Shown: positions 33,102 through 41,131 of the stretch, one piece after another
Position numbering within the stretch: the first letter of the stretch is position 1
How the letters are laid out: every line of letters begins with the position of its first letter
Translations under genes and position numbers: made by a program
Origin: an uncultured Marinococcus sp.
GTDB lineage: Bacteria > Bacillota > Bacilli > Bacillales > Marinococcaceae
Length of the DNA stretch: 64,000 bases
Assembly (NCBI RefSeq): GCF_947493875.1
Contig: NZ_CANLSU010000003.1
Coordinates: 62,001 to 126,000 of the forward strand
Reading direction: 5' to 3'
The notes under the pieces: generated by a model
Seen by the model: the letters and a program-made list of their open reading frames with translations, nothing else
Databases searched by the model: none
Told to the model about the DNA's origin: nothing

Positions 33102-33614
33102 ATGAAATATACATACAGAATGTATAATGCATTCTCTGACAAAGCGTCACATATCTATCGGGAGGGCGAGTTGGTGGGATTTATTCAAAAGTATTATCCC
33201 AATGTTTTGATGAAATTGGTAGAGAACCTCTTTTCGACGACCCTCACAAATCGATACCGGGTGATTAACTCAGAGGGCGTTCTTTTGATGGAAGCAAAAA
33301 TGCATCAACCGCTTAAAAAACGACAATACGATGTTTACTATTATGGTCAGAATGAAACACAATATGTGCATTTATTGGATAACAAAGCATTTGAACTGGG
33401 AGAGAGCACAGCTTTTACCTTTAACAATGAGATATATTATTTATATAAATCAATGTTTGGTTGGGGAGAAATTAAGAACGGCAATCATGCAATTGCCAGA
33501 TGGAAGGGAACATTAAGCTGGCCGCCAGAGGCCCAGTTTGAACTTCTTGACCAGGAATACGCCCGCGCAGCTTTATTTTTCCTGGGGGTTTTTCATGCCT
33601 TTTGTTTTAATTAA
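33102..33614 (+). CDS. Tubby C-terminal / LURP-one-like protein
   Basis: A 170-aa soluble protein without signal peptide. Its alternating beta pattern and landmarks (YREGELVGFIQKYYPN, RYRVINSEGVLLMEAK, QYDVYYYGQNETQYVHLLDNKAFELG) fit the tubby-like / LURP-one beta-barrel proteins found in Firmicutes, whose role is unknown. AAAGGA precedes the ATG. The family call is by pattern and not secure. It sits inside the small membrane protein island. Confidence 0.55.
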   Translation: MKYTYRMYNAFSDKASHIYREGELVGFIQKYYPNVLMKLVENLFSTTLTNRYRVINSEGVLLMEAKMHQPLKKRQYDVYYYGQNETQYVHLLDNKAFELGESTAFTFNNEIYYLYKSMFGWGEIKNGNHAIARWKGTLSWPPEAQFELLDQEYARAALFFLGVFHAFCFN

Positions 33615-33762
33615 GAACGCTGAAGGAATTAATCAAACTGAAAAACCAATAATGTTATATTTTTTTGAGCCAACAGATGTGGAAGAATGATTTTTCTTTG
33701 AGGCTATGCTAATTCGCAGACAAAAAACTACCGGTTAAGATATGTAAGGAGCCAGGGGAAAT

Positions 33763-33945
33763 ATGCATATAAAAACATTCATTAAAGGCAGCTTATATGT
33801 TGTACTTGCACTCTATACGCTCGTGTTTCTGGCCTACAGTATAAAAACGGGGGACTGGAACCTTCTTGTGTATATTTTTGGTCTCATTTTTATGGCAAGC
33901 CCTTTTATTGGTATGTACTATGTGTTTTTTCCGCCGAGTCCATAG
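33763..33945 (+). CDS. Small two-helix membrane protein, paralogue 1
   Basis: A 60-aa protein with AAGGAG and AGGGG before the ATG. Layout: helix (8-27), short loop KTGDWN, helix (32-55), end FFPPSP. It is clearly paralogous to the 58-aa protein at 34547: both share YT-LF, (K/R)TG(D/E)WN-LV and PP near the end. Function unknown. Confidence 0.65.
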   Translation: MHIKTFIKGSLYVVLALYTLVFLAYSIKTGDWNLLVYIFGLIFMASPFIGMYYVFFPPSP

Positions 33946-33956
33946 CTGTTGAAGTT

Positions 33957-34000
33957 AAAAATATGCCTGGAGGAACATATTCTCCTCCAGGCATATTTTA
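33957..34000. terminator. Bidirectional terminator
   Basis: A perfect stem of about 17 bp, AAATATGCCTGGAGGA / TCCTCCAGGCATATTT, with T runs on both sides. It separates the plus-strand small gene from the minus-strand pseudogene. Confidence 0.9.
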
Positions 34001-34001
34001 A

Positions 34002-34291
34002 TTAAGACAGAAACATAAAACCAATCCAAAGAAAAGGCGAGAAGAACAGGGGCAGAGACAGAATAATCAGATGCCTGATCTGCAGTAGGAAAGCCAGGCA
34101 GGAAGCGAATAATCCAAAAAGCAAAACGAAAACAAAGCGCCCAGAAAGCCGAATGCTTCTTGATACATAGAAAAAATATCGTTGTTTTGAATGAAATCTC
34201 CATTTAGAGGTGAAAACACGGGGAGAAGCAATAAAATTCCAATAATAATAAAAATCCAATTCGTAACGTAAGCAATTTTATGGAGAATCAT
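34002..34291 (-). pseudogene. Frameshifted three-helix membrane protein, paralogue of 45163-45444
   Basis: The first frame begins MILHKIAYVTNWIFIIIG and the second ends LFGLFASCLAFLLQ, IRHLIILSL, FSPFLWI. Together they match the intact 93-aa protein at 45163-45444 end to end. The break lies near 34105-34125, where the intact paralogue has about five codons (YAFYI) and this copy only about five bases, so a deletion of about 10 bp explains the shift. The upstream sequences of the two copies (GATGTCAAAA, GCAGA/CAGAAG before the ATG) are also alike. Confidence 0.75.
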
Positions 34292-34546
34292 GGGAACTTC
34301 TGGAGTTTTGACATTGACAATGACGATTGTTTTTTATTATTCCAAGTCAGCGTTTTCTCCTCAAGAATATTAAACATAGAGAAGAAGATATAACCTGAAT
34401 TCTCCATTTAAGCGTAACACTTCTTCTTGAAAATAATGTAAATCACAACTAAACTAAAGTCAATTCAAGCTCATTCTAATGTCCATATCATCGAAAAGAT
34501 ACTGAATAAACAGCTCAAAAACCGGTAGGGAGAAAGGGGGCAGGAC

Positions 34547-34723
34547 ATGAAGACAGTGCTCAAGCGTTCGGCATGGATAGTATTAAGCGTTTATACGATT
34601 TTATTTATTGCTGCTGGAGTTAGGACCGGGGAATGGAATATTCTCGTTTTTATAGGAGGTTTTATTATCCTTGGCGGTGGTTTTTTAGGATCTTATTATA
34701 AAAATTATCCTCCAAAAGCTTAA
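34547..34723 (+). CDS. Small two-helix membrane protein, paralogue 2
   Basis: A 58-aa protein preceded by GAAAGGGGG. Two helices flank the loop VRTGEWN; it ends YKNYPPKA. It is paralogous to 33763-33945. Function unknown. Confidence 0.65.
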   Translation: MKTVLKRSAWIVLSVYTILFIAAGVRTGEWNILVFIGGFIILGGGFLGSYYKNYPPKA

Positions 34724-34911
34724 GACCATATTTTGAAAGCGACTTCCGTTCTGCGTGTTTGGATAATTTTATTAGGTTTACACAGATAATTTAAAAAGTA
34801 GGCATTTTTCAAGAAACTTTTATCATCACCATTTTCCTTATCTGAGAAACGATTTTTCCTTTTATTGGGTAATATTATGCAGGAGATATGAAAAGGAGAA
34901 GGGAGGTAGTC

Positions 34912-35316
34912 ATGAGTGAAAATTGGTGGTTTCTTTTAGAGCTTGTTTTAAGCCTGGGATTGATTCTTGGCGGCGTCGCTCTGATTGCCACGCTGGCCCG
35001 AAGATGGTATAGGAAGCGCAATGGTCACGAACGTTCTGAACGCTACGCGAATGATATGCATCGAAGGATAACCCTTTGGTTTTCCGTCCTTATGGTTCCC
35101 TTTTTGTTTATCATTAATCTGGAAAGGGTTCCAGGCCATCTCATCCTTCTTGTGGTTATTTTTCCTCTTTTTTTGCTGTACATGGCTATCAGTACCTACT
35201 TATGGAAACAGGAGAGCAACAATAAAGATAATTATTTGTATGATTGGTGGGGGGTGGGCGCAACGGTTGCTTGGCTAATGCTTGTTATGCTTGGTTATCA
35301 ATGGTGGGGGATGTAA
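34912..35316 (+). CDS. Membrane protein of unknown function, four helices
   Basis: A 134-aa protein with helices at about 5-27, 52-68, 75-95 and 112-131, a basic loop RRWYRKRNGHERSER and a Trp-rich end (DWWGVGATVAWL, YQWWGM). GGGAGG stands 5 bp before ATG 34912; the frame extends 8 codons further without a site. It ends 28 bp before the M29 gene, so they may be cotranscribed. Confidence 0.65.
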   Translation: MSENWWFLLELVLSLGLILGGVALIATLARRWYRKRNGHERSERYANDMHRRITLWFSVLMVPFLFIINLERVPGHLILLVVIFPLFLLYMAISTYLWKQESNNKDNYLYDWWGVGATVAWLMLVMLGYQWWGM

Positions 35317-35344
35317 CAGTTTTTATGAAAAGGAGTGAGGGATA

Positions 35345-36595
35345 ATGGACGATAGCAAAGAGCTTATCAGCGACGAATCATTAAAAAAATATGCCGAGCT
35401 TTCGATACGAATGGGAATCAATGTACAGAAGAATCAATTAGTAGTGATACATAGTGATATCAAGCATGCCGCTTTTGCGCGTCTTGTCCAAATGGCAGCC
35501 TACGAAGCGGGGGCTTCCAGTGTAGTGATGGACTGGAGGGATGAGTGGTCGGCCCGGGCCTTTTATCTTCATGCTGCGGAAGAAGCTATCGATCACTTTC
35601 CTGATTGGAAGCAGGCTCGCGTGAACGAATGGGACAATGCGGGGGCCGCCTACATTCATCTCATCTCTGAAAGCTTCGATGTCTTTGCGGATATTTCCCC
35701 TGAACGAATCAGTCGCTTTCAACAGGCTTATCGCAGCAAACTGGAGAGATATTACGCAAAGATGAGATCCCACGAGGCACGCTGGTGTCTGTTGGCTGTT
35801 CCGTCCTTCGCCTGGGCGGCGAAAGTATTTCCCCATCTAAGGAAAGAAGAAGCGCTGCAATCGTTATGGCAGGTCGTCTTACACGGAGCGCGTGCCGATG
35901 GAAGCCATCCCATCGAAGAGTGGGAAAACCATGACAGAGACTTCGAGTCCCGGAAAAGGTTTCTCAACAATCGACAGTTTGACGCTTTGCATTTTACTAA
36001 TAACCAGGGAACCGATTTGATCGTCGGCATGCCGGAAAATCACGCTTTTCTCGGCGGTGGAGTGACAGACACCGAGGGAGTTCCATTTTTTCCGAACATT
36101 CCTACGGAGGAAATATTTTCAGCTCCCCATAAACATGAGGTCAATGGCAGGATCGTAGCTACAAAACCGCTCGTGCACGAGGGAAGGATCATCCAGGATA
36201 TTTCCCTCACCTTTCAAGATGGGCGAATCACGTCCTATGCTGCGGCCACTGGCCAGGAACCATTACAGCATCTCATTGAAACCGACGAAGGTGCTCGGCA
36301 TTTAGGGGAGATTGCGCTGGTTTCGAGTCATTCGCCTCTTGCTCAAACAGATATGCTTTTCTATAATACCCTGTTTGATGAGAACATGGCTTGTCATGTT
36401 GGCCTCGGTAACGCCTCCCCCTCCAACCTTCAACACGGCAGCAGCCTATCGGAGCAAGCGTTGGAGGCAGCAGGACTGAATACATCCCTTTTGTCGGTCA
36501 ATATCGCCTTTGGCACAGAAGATATGAAGGTGACGGGTGTCGAAAAAGACGGGCAGGAAACTGTATTAATGAATGACGGGGATTTTCAATTCTAA
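35345..36595 (+). CDS. M29 family aminopeptidase homologue lacking two metal ligands
   Basis: A 416-aa protein matching M29 (AmpS/PepS) aminopeptidases over its full length: MGINVQKNQLVVIHSDIKHAA (about 23-43), NIPTEEIFSAPHK (about 250), HLGEIALV (about 316), and YNTLFDENMACHVGLG (about 340-355). These carry the Glu, Glu and His ligands. The last family motif, normally HVDFMIG, reads SVNIAFG here (about 387-393), so His and Asp are Ser and Asn. The di-metal site should be incomplete, and activity is doubtful or altered. AGGAGTG precedes the ATG. Confidence 0.85.
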   Translation: MDDSKELISDESLKKYAELSIRMGINVQKNQLVVIHSDIKHAAFARLVQMAAYEAGASSVVMDWRDEWSARAFYLHAAEEAIDHFPDWKQARVNEWDNAGAAYIHLISESFDVFADISPERISRFQQAYRSKLERYYAKMRSHEARWCLLAVPSFAWAAKVFPHLRKEEALQSLWQVVLHGARADGSHPIEEWENHDRDFESRKRFLNNRQFDALHFTNNQGTDLIVGMPENHAFLGGGVTDTEGVPFFPNIPTEEIFSAPHKHEVNGRIVATKPLVHEGRIIQDISLTFQDGRITSYAAATGQEPLQHLIETDEGARHLGEIALVSSHSPLAQTDMLFYNTLFDENMACHVGLGNASPSNLQHGSSLSEQALEAAGLNTSLLSVNIAFGTEDMKVTGVEKDGQETVLMNDGDFQF

Positions 36596-36728: not shown

Positions 36729-37166
36729 ATGAGACGTTCTTTTAATACTGTTCGTTTGTTATCTTCAGCAGCTGTTGCTGTGTTATTTTACGTGGCCTTT
36801 GTCCTTTTAACGTTAGAACCTTTAGCCAAAAATACATATGCTCGATCTTTAGCGGTGGAAGCACGGATGCTGGATCCAAAAATTCAGCGTGCTCAAGCTA
36901 ATGGAACGCTGGAAGTGTCTCATAGTCAATTTGCCACGGACTTTTTAGAAACGGTGAACCATTATAAATATATTCCCATAGGTATTGTTTTTGTCTCTAT
37001 CATCGTCACCCTTGTGGGATTATGGACGGCCAAATATAATCATCGAATGTCTGCAAATATATTTATGTTTGCTTCGCTCCTTTCGTTATTAACTGTTCTC
37101 CCAGCTATCCTCCAAGCTATTTCAGGATATCTCATGTTTAAGAAAGCGAAAATAGACTCCCTCTAA
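36729..37166 (+). CDS. Membrane protein of unknown function
   Basis: A 145-aa protein. One helix (about 9-30), an extracytoplasmic loop of about 50 aa with many charged residues, two or three further helices (about 78-98, 106-133) and a basic end (KKAKIDSL). The layout resembles DUF4064-type proteins of bacilli but I cannot confirm it. GAGGAGG stands 7 bp before ATG 36729. Confidence 0.65.
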   Translation: MRRSFNTVRLLSSAAVAVLFYVAFVLLTLEPLAKNTYARSLAVEARMLDPKIQRAQANGTLEVSHSQFATDFLETVNHYKYIPIGIVFVSIIVTLVGLWTAKYNHRMSANIFMFASLLSLLTVLPAILQAISGYLMFKKAKIDSL

Positions 37167-37305
37167 AGGGAGGGGCAATTAATTCCTTTCGATCAAGTAT
37201 CAAAGCTTTAGTTTAAAAACCAAAAAATTTTAATCTGGCTTTACAGGAAATTAATTCCTCCTTTAAGTTTCTTTAGTATGGTTGCTAAAGAAGGGGGGCA
37301 TACAT

Positions 37306-39926
37306 ATGAATAAACGATTAGTGTATCCCGTATCATTGACTGTCGTGGCAGGAGGTTTAATTTTAGGCGGAGCCACGTCCGCCGAAGCAGAAGGACCCGC
37401 AGACCCTGCGCCGGAGCTTTTGCCGGAGAATCCTAATGGAGAAAAGGTACTCTTCGACAATTCGCATGGCCAGACAGCCGGTGCAGCTGACTGGGTGATC
37501 GATGGAGCGTTTTCCGATTTCGGGGAAGCCCTGCAGGACGAAGGCTACGAAGTCCGGGAGCTTCGACAGGAGGATCCCATTTCCCTTGGCGATTTAAGTG
37601 CTTATGATGTGTTTGTGATGCCAGAAGCAAATATACCGCTAAAGACGTCCGAACAACAAGCACTTGAGCAATACGCCGAGCAGGGGGGCAGTATTTTCTT
37701 TATTTCGGATCATTATAATGCCGACCGCAATAAAAACCGTTGGGATTCGTCGGAAATCATGAATGGGTATCGCCGGGGAGCTTTTAACGAACCGACAAAA
37801 GGAATGAGTGAAGACGAAGCTGCGTCAGAGTCGATGCAGGGCGTTGAAAGTTCAGACTGGCTTTCAGAAGAATTTGGCGTCCGTTTCCGCTATAATTCCC
37901 CTGGGACCGTTACCGCTGACCAGGTGGTGTCTCCGGAGGAATCGTTTGGTATTACCGAAGGGATCGATGAAGTAGCGATGCATGCAGGCTCTACGGTGGC
38001 CATTACGGATCCGGAGCTTGCAAAGGGCATTGTCTATCTACCTGATAACCTGACAGAAGCCGATAAGTGGGGGCCTTCCGTCGACGAAGGTATCTATCAC
38101 GGAGGCGGCATAGAGGAAGGACCATTCGTGGCAGTTTCTAAAAAAGAACAGGGCAAAGCAGCCTTTATCGGAGACTCCTCCCCGGTCGAAGATGCAACAC
38201 CGAAGTACAAACGGGAAGAGACGGGGGATACGAAGCGTACGTACGACGGGTTCACGGAAGCCGACGATGCAGAGTTGCTTGTACAGACAGTCGATTGGCT
38301 GGCTGAACAGGAAAGCTATACGTCTTTGAACGAAACAGATGTATCCTTGGATGAGCCGTCCCCGATACTGGAAAAAGAAAAACCGCAGCAGTCCACGCAG
38401 CCAGAGCCAGAACCGTGGAGCCAGCCGGCCGATGGTTATCTCTGGTATGATCCGGATACGTTTGCTCCTGGTTCCTATGGTTCAGATGAAGCGCCAGTGG
38501 AAGATCCTTCATATACATTTAATCATTTGTCGCCGTTGCCGACTGGAGATAGCTTTACAGTAGAAGTAGAGGTAGATAATGTCGAGCCGGGAGAGACGGT
38601 ATCCGGTCTCAGCCTGGGCATTTATTTAGACGGGGGCCAACAGGTGGCCCAGGTACAAAATGAGGACGGCAGCTGGCCATCGGATTATGGCTACAGTGAA
38701 GCATTCTCGATCACCGCAGATGAAAATGGGGTGGCAAAGACAGCGTTAACCATTCGTACTGCAGAGCATACCGCAGAGAATGCCCATATGCGCATCCGGC
38801 AAAATGGAAACAATAAATACACCGAATCAGTCGATTTCAACAGTGCCTCAGAGGAAAATCCGGAAGAGGAAACGGAGTCCGTTCCGATTTCGAATGCCCG
38901 AAATGCAGCGGATGGAGAAACCGTGACCGTCGAAGGAACGATTACGACAGACCCGGGGCTGTATGGTTCCAACGGGTTCTATCTTCAGGATGAAAGTGCC
39001 GGCATTTACGTCTATCAAAGCAGCGGGGAGTGGAAGCGAGGCGACCGTGTCGCCATCACGGCTCCCGTAACAACCTATAACACGGAAAAGGAACTGATAG
39101 ATCCGGTTGCGATTGAAAAACTGGGTACAGAAGAGGTGCCCGGAGCACAAACTGTGACAACGGTTGGAGAAGAAAATCAGGGAGAACGAGTGAAGCTTCA
39201 GAACGGCACCATTTCAAACATCGAACAGGCCGGCAATTCGTTTGAATTTACCCTTGAGCATGATAATACCGAAACGCTTATTCGCGTCGACGGGCGGACA
39301 GGCTACAGTTATTCCGACTTTAACGAAGCTTATTCAAACGGGGATACGGTAGACGTAACAGGCATTTCATCCATTTACCAGGGCACGTATCAGGTGAAGC
39401 CAACAACCGAAGCGGACGTTCAGCAGGCGAAGGAGCAAGACACTGTCGCACCAGAAATTTCGGGGCTGTCAGACAGCCGGTTTTCTGTCACAGAAGCCTG
39501 GGCCCCGAAAGCTGAAATCACAGACAACAGCGGGTCTTCCGTATCTGTTGAATATGCCTTGGGGGACTGGAGAGGCGAAGTACTGCCTCCATTGACAGCT
39601 CTTCCCGGAGAGCATGAACTGACGGTAACCGCAGTGGATGCGGCCGGTAATGAAGCAGAAAAGTTTATCCCGTAGAAGCCCTTCTTGATACGGAGGACCT
39701 GGATGATTTAATGACTGAGGCTGACTCGAAAAATTGGATCACTGATGAAAAAGCACTTCAGCAATTAATGAAGCGGGCAGAAAAAGTCCAGCAGGCGCCG
39801 AATCATCAAGCCGCAGCTGGAAAATGGCAGGCAACTGTCAACTACGCTTCAGCAAAAGAAGGAAAAACGGTGACCAATCATTTGCTCACCTATATGAGCA
39901 GCTACGACGTTAGTCATGGAAAGTAA
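37306..39926 (+). pseudogene. Large secreted multidomain protein with C-terminal frameshift
   Basis: A signal peptide (1-29, ending SAEAE) leads to a GIFT/glutamine-amidotransferase-like domain (about 45-330: VLFDNSHGQTAGAADWV, YDVFVMPEANIP, GGSIFFISDHYNADRN), a Pro/Glu linker, a beta domain (about 400-500), an OB-fold like extracellular nucleic-acid-binding domain similar to the N-terminal part of YhcR-type nucleases (about 525-700: VTVEGTITTDPGLYGSNGFY, YVYQSSGEWKRGD) and an Ig-like domain (about 705-785). The frame stops at 39675. In the minus-one frame it continues directly as VYPVEALLDTEDLDDLMTEA to 39926, a helical C-terminus. One missing A in GAAAAG near 39660 explains the break. No nuclease motif is visible. 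ATG 37306 follows GAAGGGGGG. Confidence 0.75.
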
Positions 39927-39987: not shown

Positions 39988-40156
39988 TTACTGTTATCAT
40001 GAACAGAAAATGTAAATAGTTTATTCAAATAGTCTTAAGCTTTTGTAAATATAGCCAATAACTTCCAAAAAACATTTATACTGAACGATGTGTTGGAAAA
40101 ACCACTGGATTTTTCTGAACTCGCAAAAAGATACATAACACATGGGAGGAATTTTC

Positions 40157-41131
40157 ATGAAAAAGCAATGGATGGCAGGATTTACACTGGCTTCAGCTGT
40201 TATGGTGACAGCAGCCTGCGGATCTTCGGGCGGAGGAGAAGAAAGCGAAGGCAGTGAAGGAAATACAAGCGCCTCCGGTTCTGGAGGAAATTCCTCGGAG
40301 GAGCTTGAAGAACTTCGGGTTCAGTTCGTTCCTTCCCAGGATGCGGATACGCTTGAAGCGAAAGCCAAGCCACTTGAGGATCTTCTTGGTGAAGAGCTGG
40401 GTATCCCCGTAGAGGTAAGTGTCTCTACAGACTACAATTCCATCGTTGAAGCCATGAATTCTGATCAGGTGGATGTGGGCTTTCTCCCTCCTACAGCGTA
40501 CGTACTTGCCCATGAGCAGGAAGCGGCAGATGTGCTTCTGCAAGCACAGCGTTACGGAGTGAACGACGACGGAGCAGAGACCGATGAGCTGGTGGATTAC
40601 TACCTTTCCCAGTTTGTAGTCGATGCAGACAGCGATATGGAAAGCATTGAAGACTTGAAAGGAAAACGAGTGGCGTATCAAAATACCACAAGCTCTGCCG
40701 GTTTTGTATGGCCGGCTGCTGAAATGATGGATGCGGGCCTGAAGCCGCTCGAGGATGTAGAGCCGGTAACGGTGACCGGACATGATCAGGCCATTGTATC
40801 GCTTTTAAACGACGACGTGGATGCAGCGGTCACGTTCCAGGATGCGCGCAACACCGTATCGGAAGACTATGAATCCGTATTTGAGGACACAAAAATTCTG
40901 GAATACACTGAAAAAATTCCAAACGATACCGTGTCAATTCGGCCGGAAATTGAAGGCGACATAAGACAGGATATTGCTGACGCCTTTATTTCTCTCGGCG
41001 AGAATGACGAAAGCCAGGAAATCATACGAGATATTTATTCTCATGAAGGCTATGTCGAATCCGAGGACAGTAATTTTGACGTCGTCCGCGAGTATGAGGA
41101 TAAAGTATCCGGCCTTACGGGCAACGAATAA
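40157..41131 (+). CDS. phnD: Phosphonate-type ABC transporter substrate-binding lipoprotein
   Basis: A 324-aa lipoprotein with lipobox VTAAC (Cys about 21), an acidic Gly/Ser linker and a PhnD-type binding domain: VQFVPSQDADTLEAKAKPLE (about 50-69), DYNSIVEAMNSDQVDVGFLPPTAYVLA and TSSAGFVWPAAEM. It captures phosphonate, phosphite or a related anion outside the membrane. ATG 40157 follows GGGAGG; five codons upstream are also in frame. First gene of phnDCEE. No C-P lyase or phosphonatase gene is in the window, so the substrate is unproven. Confidence 0.9.
   Translation: MKKQWMAGFTLASAVMVTAACGSSGGGEESEGSEGNTSASGSGGNSSEELEELRVQFVPSQDADTLEAKAKPLEDLLGEELGIPVEVSVSTDYNSIVEAMNSDQVDVGFLPPTAYVLAHEQEAADVLLQAQRYGVNDDGAETDELVDYYLSQFVVDADSDMESIEDLKGKRVAYQNTTSSAGFVWPAAEMMDAGLKPLEDVEPVTVTGHDQAIVSLLNDDVDAAVTFQDARNTVSEDYESVFEDTKILEYTEKIPNDTVSIRPEIEGDIRQDIADAFISLGENDESQEIIRDIYSHEGYVESEDSNFDVVREYEDKVSGLTGNE

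Follow-up and report, generated by a model that had tools for sequence, protein, structure and literature searches.

The closest described relatives of the protein reported here are the M29 aminopeptidases AmpS, PepS, AmpT, and LmAmpII. In the accessible part of one report, E253 and H348 of AmpS hold one metal and H381 and D383 hold the other, both metals are bridged by E319 and a water molecule, and the contact made by Y355 is weak (PMC7023490). The same portion of that report states that a single alanine mutant at each of the six positions abolishes the activity of LmAmpII (PMC7023490). For Lmo1603, as far as the available text goes, the activity of mutants at the six positions is described as “completely abolished” in the abstract and as an “almost complete loss” in the results (PMC4661694). 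The M29 fold has also been put to other uses. NicX, a 2,5-dihydroxypyridine dioxygenase (7cup and 7cn3), is a precedent on this fold for one metal combined with non-peptidase chemistry, and the available part of the report gives its Fe ligands as H265, S302, H318, and D320, an HxD pair being included (PMC7910607). CgnB and CgnE (6zsv and 6zsu) are M29-derived proteins of crocagin biosynthesis, encoded in crocagin-type RiPP clusters, which are called peptide-binding proteins in the title of the report. According to its accessible part, no aminopeptidase activity was observed for them, both proteins largely lack the N-terminal dimer part, CgnE has two mutated site-1 (Zn1) ligands and no metal is seen in it, and CgnB keeps both sites (PMC10070186).

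The protein encoded by the locus analyzed here falls in a distinct M29-fold clade, which is conserved and partly mobile and belongs to a fold family that already has precedents for repurposing. A search of openly licensed PMC text returned no description of this clade.

Active-Site Residues of the M29-Fold Protein

In the window, i.e., the whole stretch of 64,000 nucleotides of Marinococcus DNA that was analyzed, an open reading frame on the forward strand (35345–36595, stop codon included) encodes a protein of 416 residues. A likely ribosome binding site, AAGGAG, can be read on the same strand at 35330–35335, 9 bases 5′ of the ATG. The Pfam model PF02073 (Peptidase_M29) matched the protein over its full length (residues 10–414, 488 bits), zero NCBIfam models matched it, and the related solved structures were PepS 4icq, AmpT 2ayi, and AmpS 1zjc (E 4e-78 to 4e-83). 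Since the window protein matches PF02073, the members of the clade are likely to be annotated automatically as “aminopeptidase.”

The active-site residues were mapped by aligning the window protein to Staphylococcus aureus AmpS (1zjc), in which the chain index exceeds the published residue number by 3. On the forward strand, the metal-1 ligands E253 and H348 of AmpS correspond to E256 (codon at 36110–36112) and H351 (36395–36397), and the bridging E319 corresponds to E322 (36308–36310); all three are kept. The catalytic Tyr, Y355, is replaced by S358 (36416–36418), and the metal-2 ligands H381 and D383 are replaced by S384 (36494–36496) and N386 (36500–36502), i.e., the protein retains metal site 1 with the bridging Glu and lacks the catalytic Tyr as well as metal site 2. 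The preliminary description of this gene had correctly recorded that two Glu and one His are kept and that HxD has become SxN. Its list of lost residues named the two metal ligands and missed the third loss, that of the catalytic Tyr to Ser at position 358. Tyr352 and Asp380 of B. stearothermophilus AP II are reportedly the subject of a paper from 2008.

The window protein clearly descends from an M29 peptidase, despite its E-E-H-S-S-N pattern, which falls outside the residue definition of such an enzyme. Because the mutants of the six residues in two Listeria M29 enzymes are reported to be inactive, ordinary aminopeptidase activity is unlikely in this protein. The “non-peptidase or mono-metal” role proposed earlier appears consistent with this mutagenesis, as presented in the accessible parts of the two reports (PMC7023490; PMC4661694). 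The same genome contains a second M29 gene with the normal residues, EEHYHD (L001), and the window protein is about 38% identical to this paralogue.

Extent of the E-E-H-S-x-N Clade

The best-matching named organism was Marinococcus halophilus (Bacillaceae, order Caryophanales in the NCBI taxonomy), the homologue of which is 84% identical to the window protein and reads SINVAFG at the last motif. We compared 51 clade members, which were chosen on overall similarity, with 45 other M29 rows, which were selected by similarity and not randomly. All 51 members carry E-E-H-S-x-N, where x is L in 34, S in 12, A in 3, and H in 2. Consequently, Glu, Glu, His, Ser, and Asn are invariant in the clade at positions 256, 322, 351, 358, and 386, respectively. 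Tyr, His, and Asp are replaced together in 49 of the 51, and the two members that keep His (EEHSHN) have two of the six residues replaced; Tyr or Asp is kept in none. EEHYHD was found in 44 of the 45 other rows, the remaining one being a truncated sequence, and Tyr was present in all 45. Identity was 62–98% inside the clade and 27–48% between the clade and the other M29 rows.

Because the separate M. halophilus genome (L003) and all 51 relatives match, the replacements are beyond chance. The preliminary description had allowed for the case that the orthologues all have HxD and that this gene bears a lone mutation, but HxD was found in 0 of the 51 clade members. The variant that it reported is real, and its scope is larger than that description could see. 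A lone mutation or a sequencing error is ruled out by the separate M. halophilus genome and by the agreement of the 51 relatives.

Some M29 match was present in all 397 genomes sampled from the window's order. This sample contained at least 45 near-full-length loci with at least 62% identity, in at least 43 genomes including the window's own, and, among the matches listed, the remaining loci were at most 43% identical, besides one part copy (G116). Eight of 398 genomes sampled from the class had a match at E ≤ 1e-120; the window's own is among them, and two were outside the order. At the level of the phylum, 14 of 398 sampled genomes had a match at E ≤ 1e-110, namely, the window's own and 13 relatives at 41–46% identity, all of which carry EEHYHD. 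The normal M29 paralogue was present in all eight other clade-bearing genomes that were scanned. The distribution of the clade within the order is patchy: within the genus of the window, the gene is present in G012 and G013 and missing from G014, where a normal M29 is the only one, and G015, a genome of the same species, retains no more than a broken piece, whose identity with the window protein is 74%.

The counts exclude copies that are broken or partial, namely, those in G010 (L012), G015 (L118), G021 (a second copy, of which L170, L174, and L176 are the same pieces), G024 (L119), and G116. In the broken pieces that were read, S358 and N386 are present where these positions are covered. L118 reads EGHSTN, with G at position 322, so that the bridging Glu is lost in this single copy (n = 1) and in 0 of the 51 members; the main piece of L119 has R at position 256, beside a frame break. 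Two short sequences were kept among the 51: L102 (404 residues) and L086 (392 residues), in which a stop lies near residue 6 and the reading begins at the first start after it. As read, none of the 51 members has an internal stop. The genome that contains L086 has three copies of the clade gene (G124:C14; L086, L106, and L107), one of which is that with the early stop.

Phylogeny and Selection

In a tree calculated without the three replaced columns, the 51 members formed one side of a branch with an SH-aLRT support of 100 and a stem about 1.2 changes per site long, and a single origin of the clade is likely. This origin is not settled, because the support for the branch falls to 55/77 once L198, the closest EEHYHD relative found, is added (in a tree of 19 of the 51 clade members, 37 of the 45 other rows, and 13 more); the branch was found in 56% of 200 bootstrap trees. 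The identity of L198 to any clade member in the tree does not exceed 50%, and L198 has 16 of 39 clade-specific residues, among them R92, W96, Y103, E109, K132, H143, R146, G186, F200, and F249, and the next non-member has 6 of 39. The placement of L198 is weakly supported (82/72). The simplest reading would be that some other changes of the clade preceded the loss of site 2 and Tyr, and with such a sequence the route from a co-catalytic two-metal enzyme to something else becomes testable. L198, together with L179 and L209, is from IMGVR_UViG_3300002501_000058, a contig that is filed as viral; its left part looks chromosomal, with an SMC-like gene and a transporter-like gene, and its right part looks phage-like.

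The dN/dS ratios (Nei–Gojobori) of the window gene against its two Marinococcus kin were 0.157 and 0.174, and the median was 0.169 over 1078 non-independent pairs with dS of 0.1–1.5. The ratios of the normal paralogue were 0.020 and 0.027 between species and 0.081 within species, so that the ratio of the clade gene is about seven times that of the paralogue between species. The clade gene is under purifying selection and is less constrained than the normal paralogue. These ratios, together with the shared S358 and N386 and the Glu, Glu, and His kept in all 51 members, support the earlier view that the change was selected and is not decay. In this salt-loving bacterium, the clade gene is probably kept for some other job.

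Among 95 positions that are near-invariant in the other M29 rows, 75 are kept in the clade, 16 are lost, and 4 are mixed, and the clade has 110 invariant columns out of 416. Of the 16 lost positions, seven are in the stretch 344–390 (Fisher p = 0.0076, for a stretch picked post hoc), and the clustering has p = 0.11 when the three catalytic positions are left out. Because most of the near-invariant positions are kept as well, the retention of Glu, Glu, and His alone is no proof of a bound metal.

Horizontal Transfer and Mobile Carriage

The clade gene has clearly been transferred horizontally in several lineages. Between G427, which is from another order, and G007, which is from the window's family, the clade protein is 94.9% identical, compared with 86.2% for RecA and 57.1% for the normal M29 protein. 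Between G120 and G325, which are from different families, the corresponding values are 95.9, 90.1, and 57.4%; the normal M29 pairs are the best PF02073 matches and may not all be orthologues. The identity of the clade protein exceeded that of RecA in 4 of 11 genome pairs. Recent transfer is shown for other lineages and not for the window copy, because in the window's own three pairs the clade protein (70.8–73.0%) falls below RecA (84.7–87.0%). These transfers suggest a function that is useful on its own. In phage records, 12 matched the clade protein, all at <60% identity; in plasmid records, 34 matched, 33 of them at <60% identity and one at 60–80%.

Predicted Structure and Comparison With Known Systems

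The predicted structure of the window protein had a pLDDT of 81.8, with modest values in the region of the site (block means of 52–72). It was calculated from an alignment of 17 rows (15 distinct strings), which were ordinary M29 rows besides the window protein and L003; an earlier model from 2 rows had a pLDDT of 33.9. The model matched PepS, AmpT, and AmpS with Z of 46–49, and residues 5–416 aligned to full-length PepS, but this likeness is not independent because the alignment is composed mostly of ordinary M29 rows. Against NicX, the Foldseek E was 1.3e-11 and Z was 21.9 (rmsd 3.8, 301 aligned residues), and Z was 10.8 against CgnE and 9.3 against CgnB.

Like AmpS, PepS, AmpT, and LmAmpII, the window protein has the full-length match, the fold, the metal-1 ligands, and the bridging Glu. 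Unlike in M29 aminopeptidases, Tyr and the metal-2 Asp are replaced throughout the clade and the metal-2 His in 49 of its 51 members. The overall fold is shared with NicX, but the His/Ser/His-x-Asp iron set of that enzyme is absent: SxN stands at the M29 HxD position of the window protein, and the other site is the one that is kept. Judging from their spacing, H318 and D320 of NicX may be the site-2 pair of M29. CgnB and CgnE resemble the window protein in their M29-derived fold, and the metal ligands of CgnE are also mutated, as stated in the accessible part of the report. In contrast to these two proteins, the clade has lost the HxD site, is of full length with the N-terminal dimer part, and has no constant neighbor.

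Gene Neighborhood and Regulation

A gene for a 142-residue membrane protein, DUF4181- or Frag1-like (both below the Pfam cut-offs), is located upstream on the same strand (34888–35316) and ends 28 bases before the M29 gene. Because its cluster was found only at the 3 Marinococcus loci among the 48, this gene is probably local context; no plasmid record matched its product. We collected 142 neighboring proteins of ≥95 residues from the 48 loci, taking up to two genes upstream and one downstream. No neighbor was constant across these loci, and the top cluster occurred in 8 loci without a fixed position. The 25 of 188 Pfam families listed for these neighbors included GNATs, alpha/beta hydrolases, APH-like kinases, and three phage integrases, and no peptide-modification or RiPP family was among them. 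Because the neighbor families were compared without a background control, they indicate an “accessory setting” and only that. Ten neighbors scanned singly gave no pattern. In the 200 bases upstream of the 51 genes, none of 11 consensus patterns was clearly above shuffles.

In the window, the M29 gene is flanked at 33102–35316 and 36729–39675 by genes for a Tubby-C-like protein, for small membrane proteins (DUF4181/Frag1-like and DUF4064-like), and for a large protein that matches ABC_transp_aux weakly; apart from Tubby, these matches are below the Pfam cut-offs. These flanks have little DNA similarity to genus mates besides the M29 gene and a few pieces. A phosphonate-type periplasmic binding protein (PF12974, 199 bits) is encoded at 40142–41131.

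Functional Interpretation

We tentatively interpret the window protein as a one-metal, non-peptidase protein on the M29 fold. The clade would descend from a working two-metal aminopeptidase, with metal site 1 (E256, H351, and the former bridging E322) retained and both the catalytic Tyr and metal site 2 replaced. A single divalent metal would then occupy the 1-His/2-Glu site, where a peptide-like or anionic small ligand might be bound or acted on by a chemistry that differs from the hydrolysis of two-metal aminopeptidases; the function would be accessory and stand-alone. We infer a loss of aminopeptidase activity, the retention of one metal, and a change of ligand, the last from basic residues that seem to have been gained in the N-terminal half (e.g., R92, K139, H143, and R146). 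The basic residues of the clade are R92, R130, K132, K139, H143, and R146, and the mean net charge is −14 in the clade vs. −20 in the other rows, the window protein itself having −24. From these residues and the charge, our guess would be an anionic ligand.

The main alternative, though a less likely one, is a metal-less pseudo-aminopeptidase that, like CgnE, would bind a peptide in the former substrate cavity and present, protect, or sequester it. The M29-derived CgnB and CgnE are without observed aminopeptidase activity and bind peptides according to the title of their report, and CgnE is metal-free, as its accessible part describes (PMC10070186); the model matches both, as given above. Since CgnE shows no metal when its site-1 ligands are mutated, losing one half of a shared two-metal site can leave no metal in either half, and the fact that only site-1 ligands are reported as mutated in CgnE counts against the one-metal interpretation. 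However, unlike in CgnE, none of the three site-1 ligands varies within the clade, the families listed for the neighbors include none for peptide modification, and the N-terminal dimer part, largely absent from CgnB and CgnE in the available account, is present in the window protein. We favor one metal at site 1 and a non-peptidase role over a metal-less binder because all site-1 ligands are fixed in the clade. It is quite improbable that the protein is still an aminopeptidase, with Ser, Asn, and water holding metal 2 and cleavage proceeding with a changed metal or substrate preference. The 75 of 95 near-invariant positions that are kept and the two members that retain His agree with such an enzyme, but single changes at Y, H, or D are described as abolishing activity in the accessible parts of the reports on two M29 enzymes, 49 of the 51 members have lost all three residues, and none keeps Tyr or Asp.

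More improbable still is a role as a regulatory subunit, in which the protein would join the normal M29 enzyme of its host in mixed dimers. AmpS and AmpT form dimers, according to the available part of the report (PMC7023490), and a normal paralogue accompanies the clade gene in the window's genome and in the eight others scanned. Nevertheless, a matched dimer interface is unlikely because the window protein shares only about 38% identity with the paralogue in its genome and the normal M29 proteins of the eight other genomes are 48–60% identical to that of the window's genome. Least plausible, with hardly any chance of being correct, is that this is an aminopeptidase gene now decaying toward loss. 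The broken copies in G010, G015, G021, and G024, the part copy in G116, and the stop near residue 6 in one G124 copy (L086) are what such decay would leave, but S358 and N386 are fixed in all 51 members at 62–98% identity, the members are free of internal stops as read, and dN/dS is about 0.16. For the open copies, decay is ruled out by the fixed, shared residue pattern and the low dN/dS.

Beyond the one-metal interpretation of this protein, it is possible, if rather doubtful, that the clade represents a new class of enzyme on the M29 fold: mononuclear, with a 1-His/2-Glu center that uses site 1 alone as the complement of NicX, catalyzing a non-peptidase reaction, and spread by horizontal transfer as a self-contained trait in relatives of Bacillus and in a neighboring order. 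A series on one fold would then be complete, with two metals (AmpS), presumably site 2 only (NicX), presumably site 1 only (the clade), and none (CgnE).

Another M29 Variant

A different replacement of the catalytic Tyr was observed in L165 (G247:C5:538498-539712) and L166 (G041:C1:2883270-2884484), which are another M29 paralogue with EEHIHD, i.e., Tyr is replaced by Ile and HxD is kept. In the tree, L165 was located outside the E-E-H-S-x-N clade.
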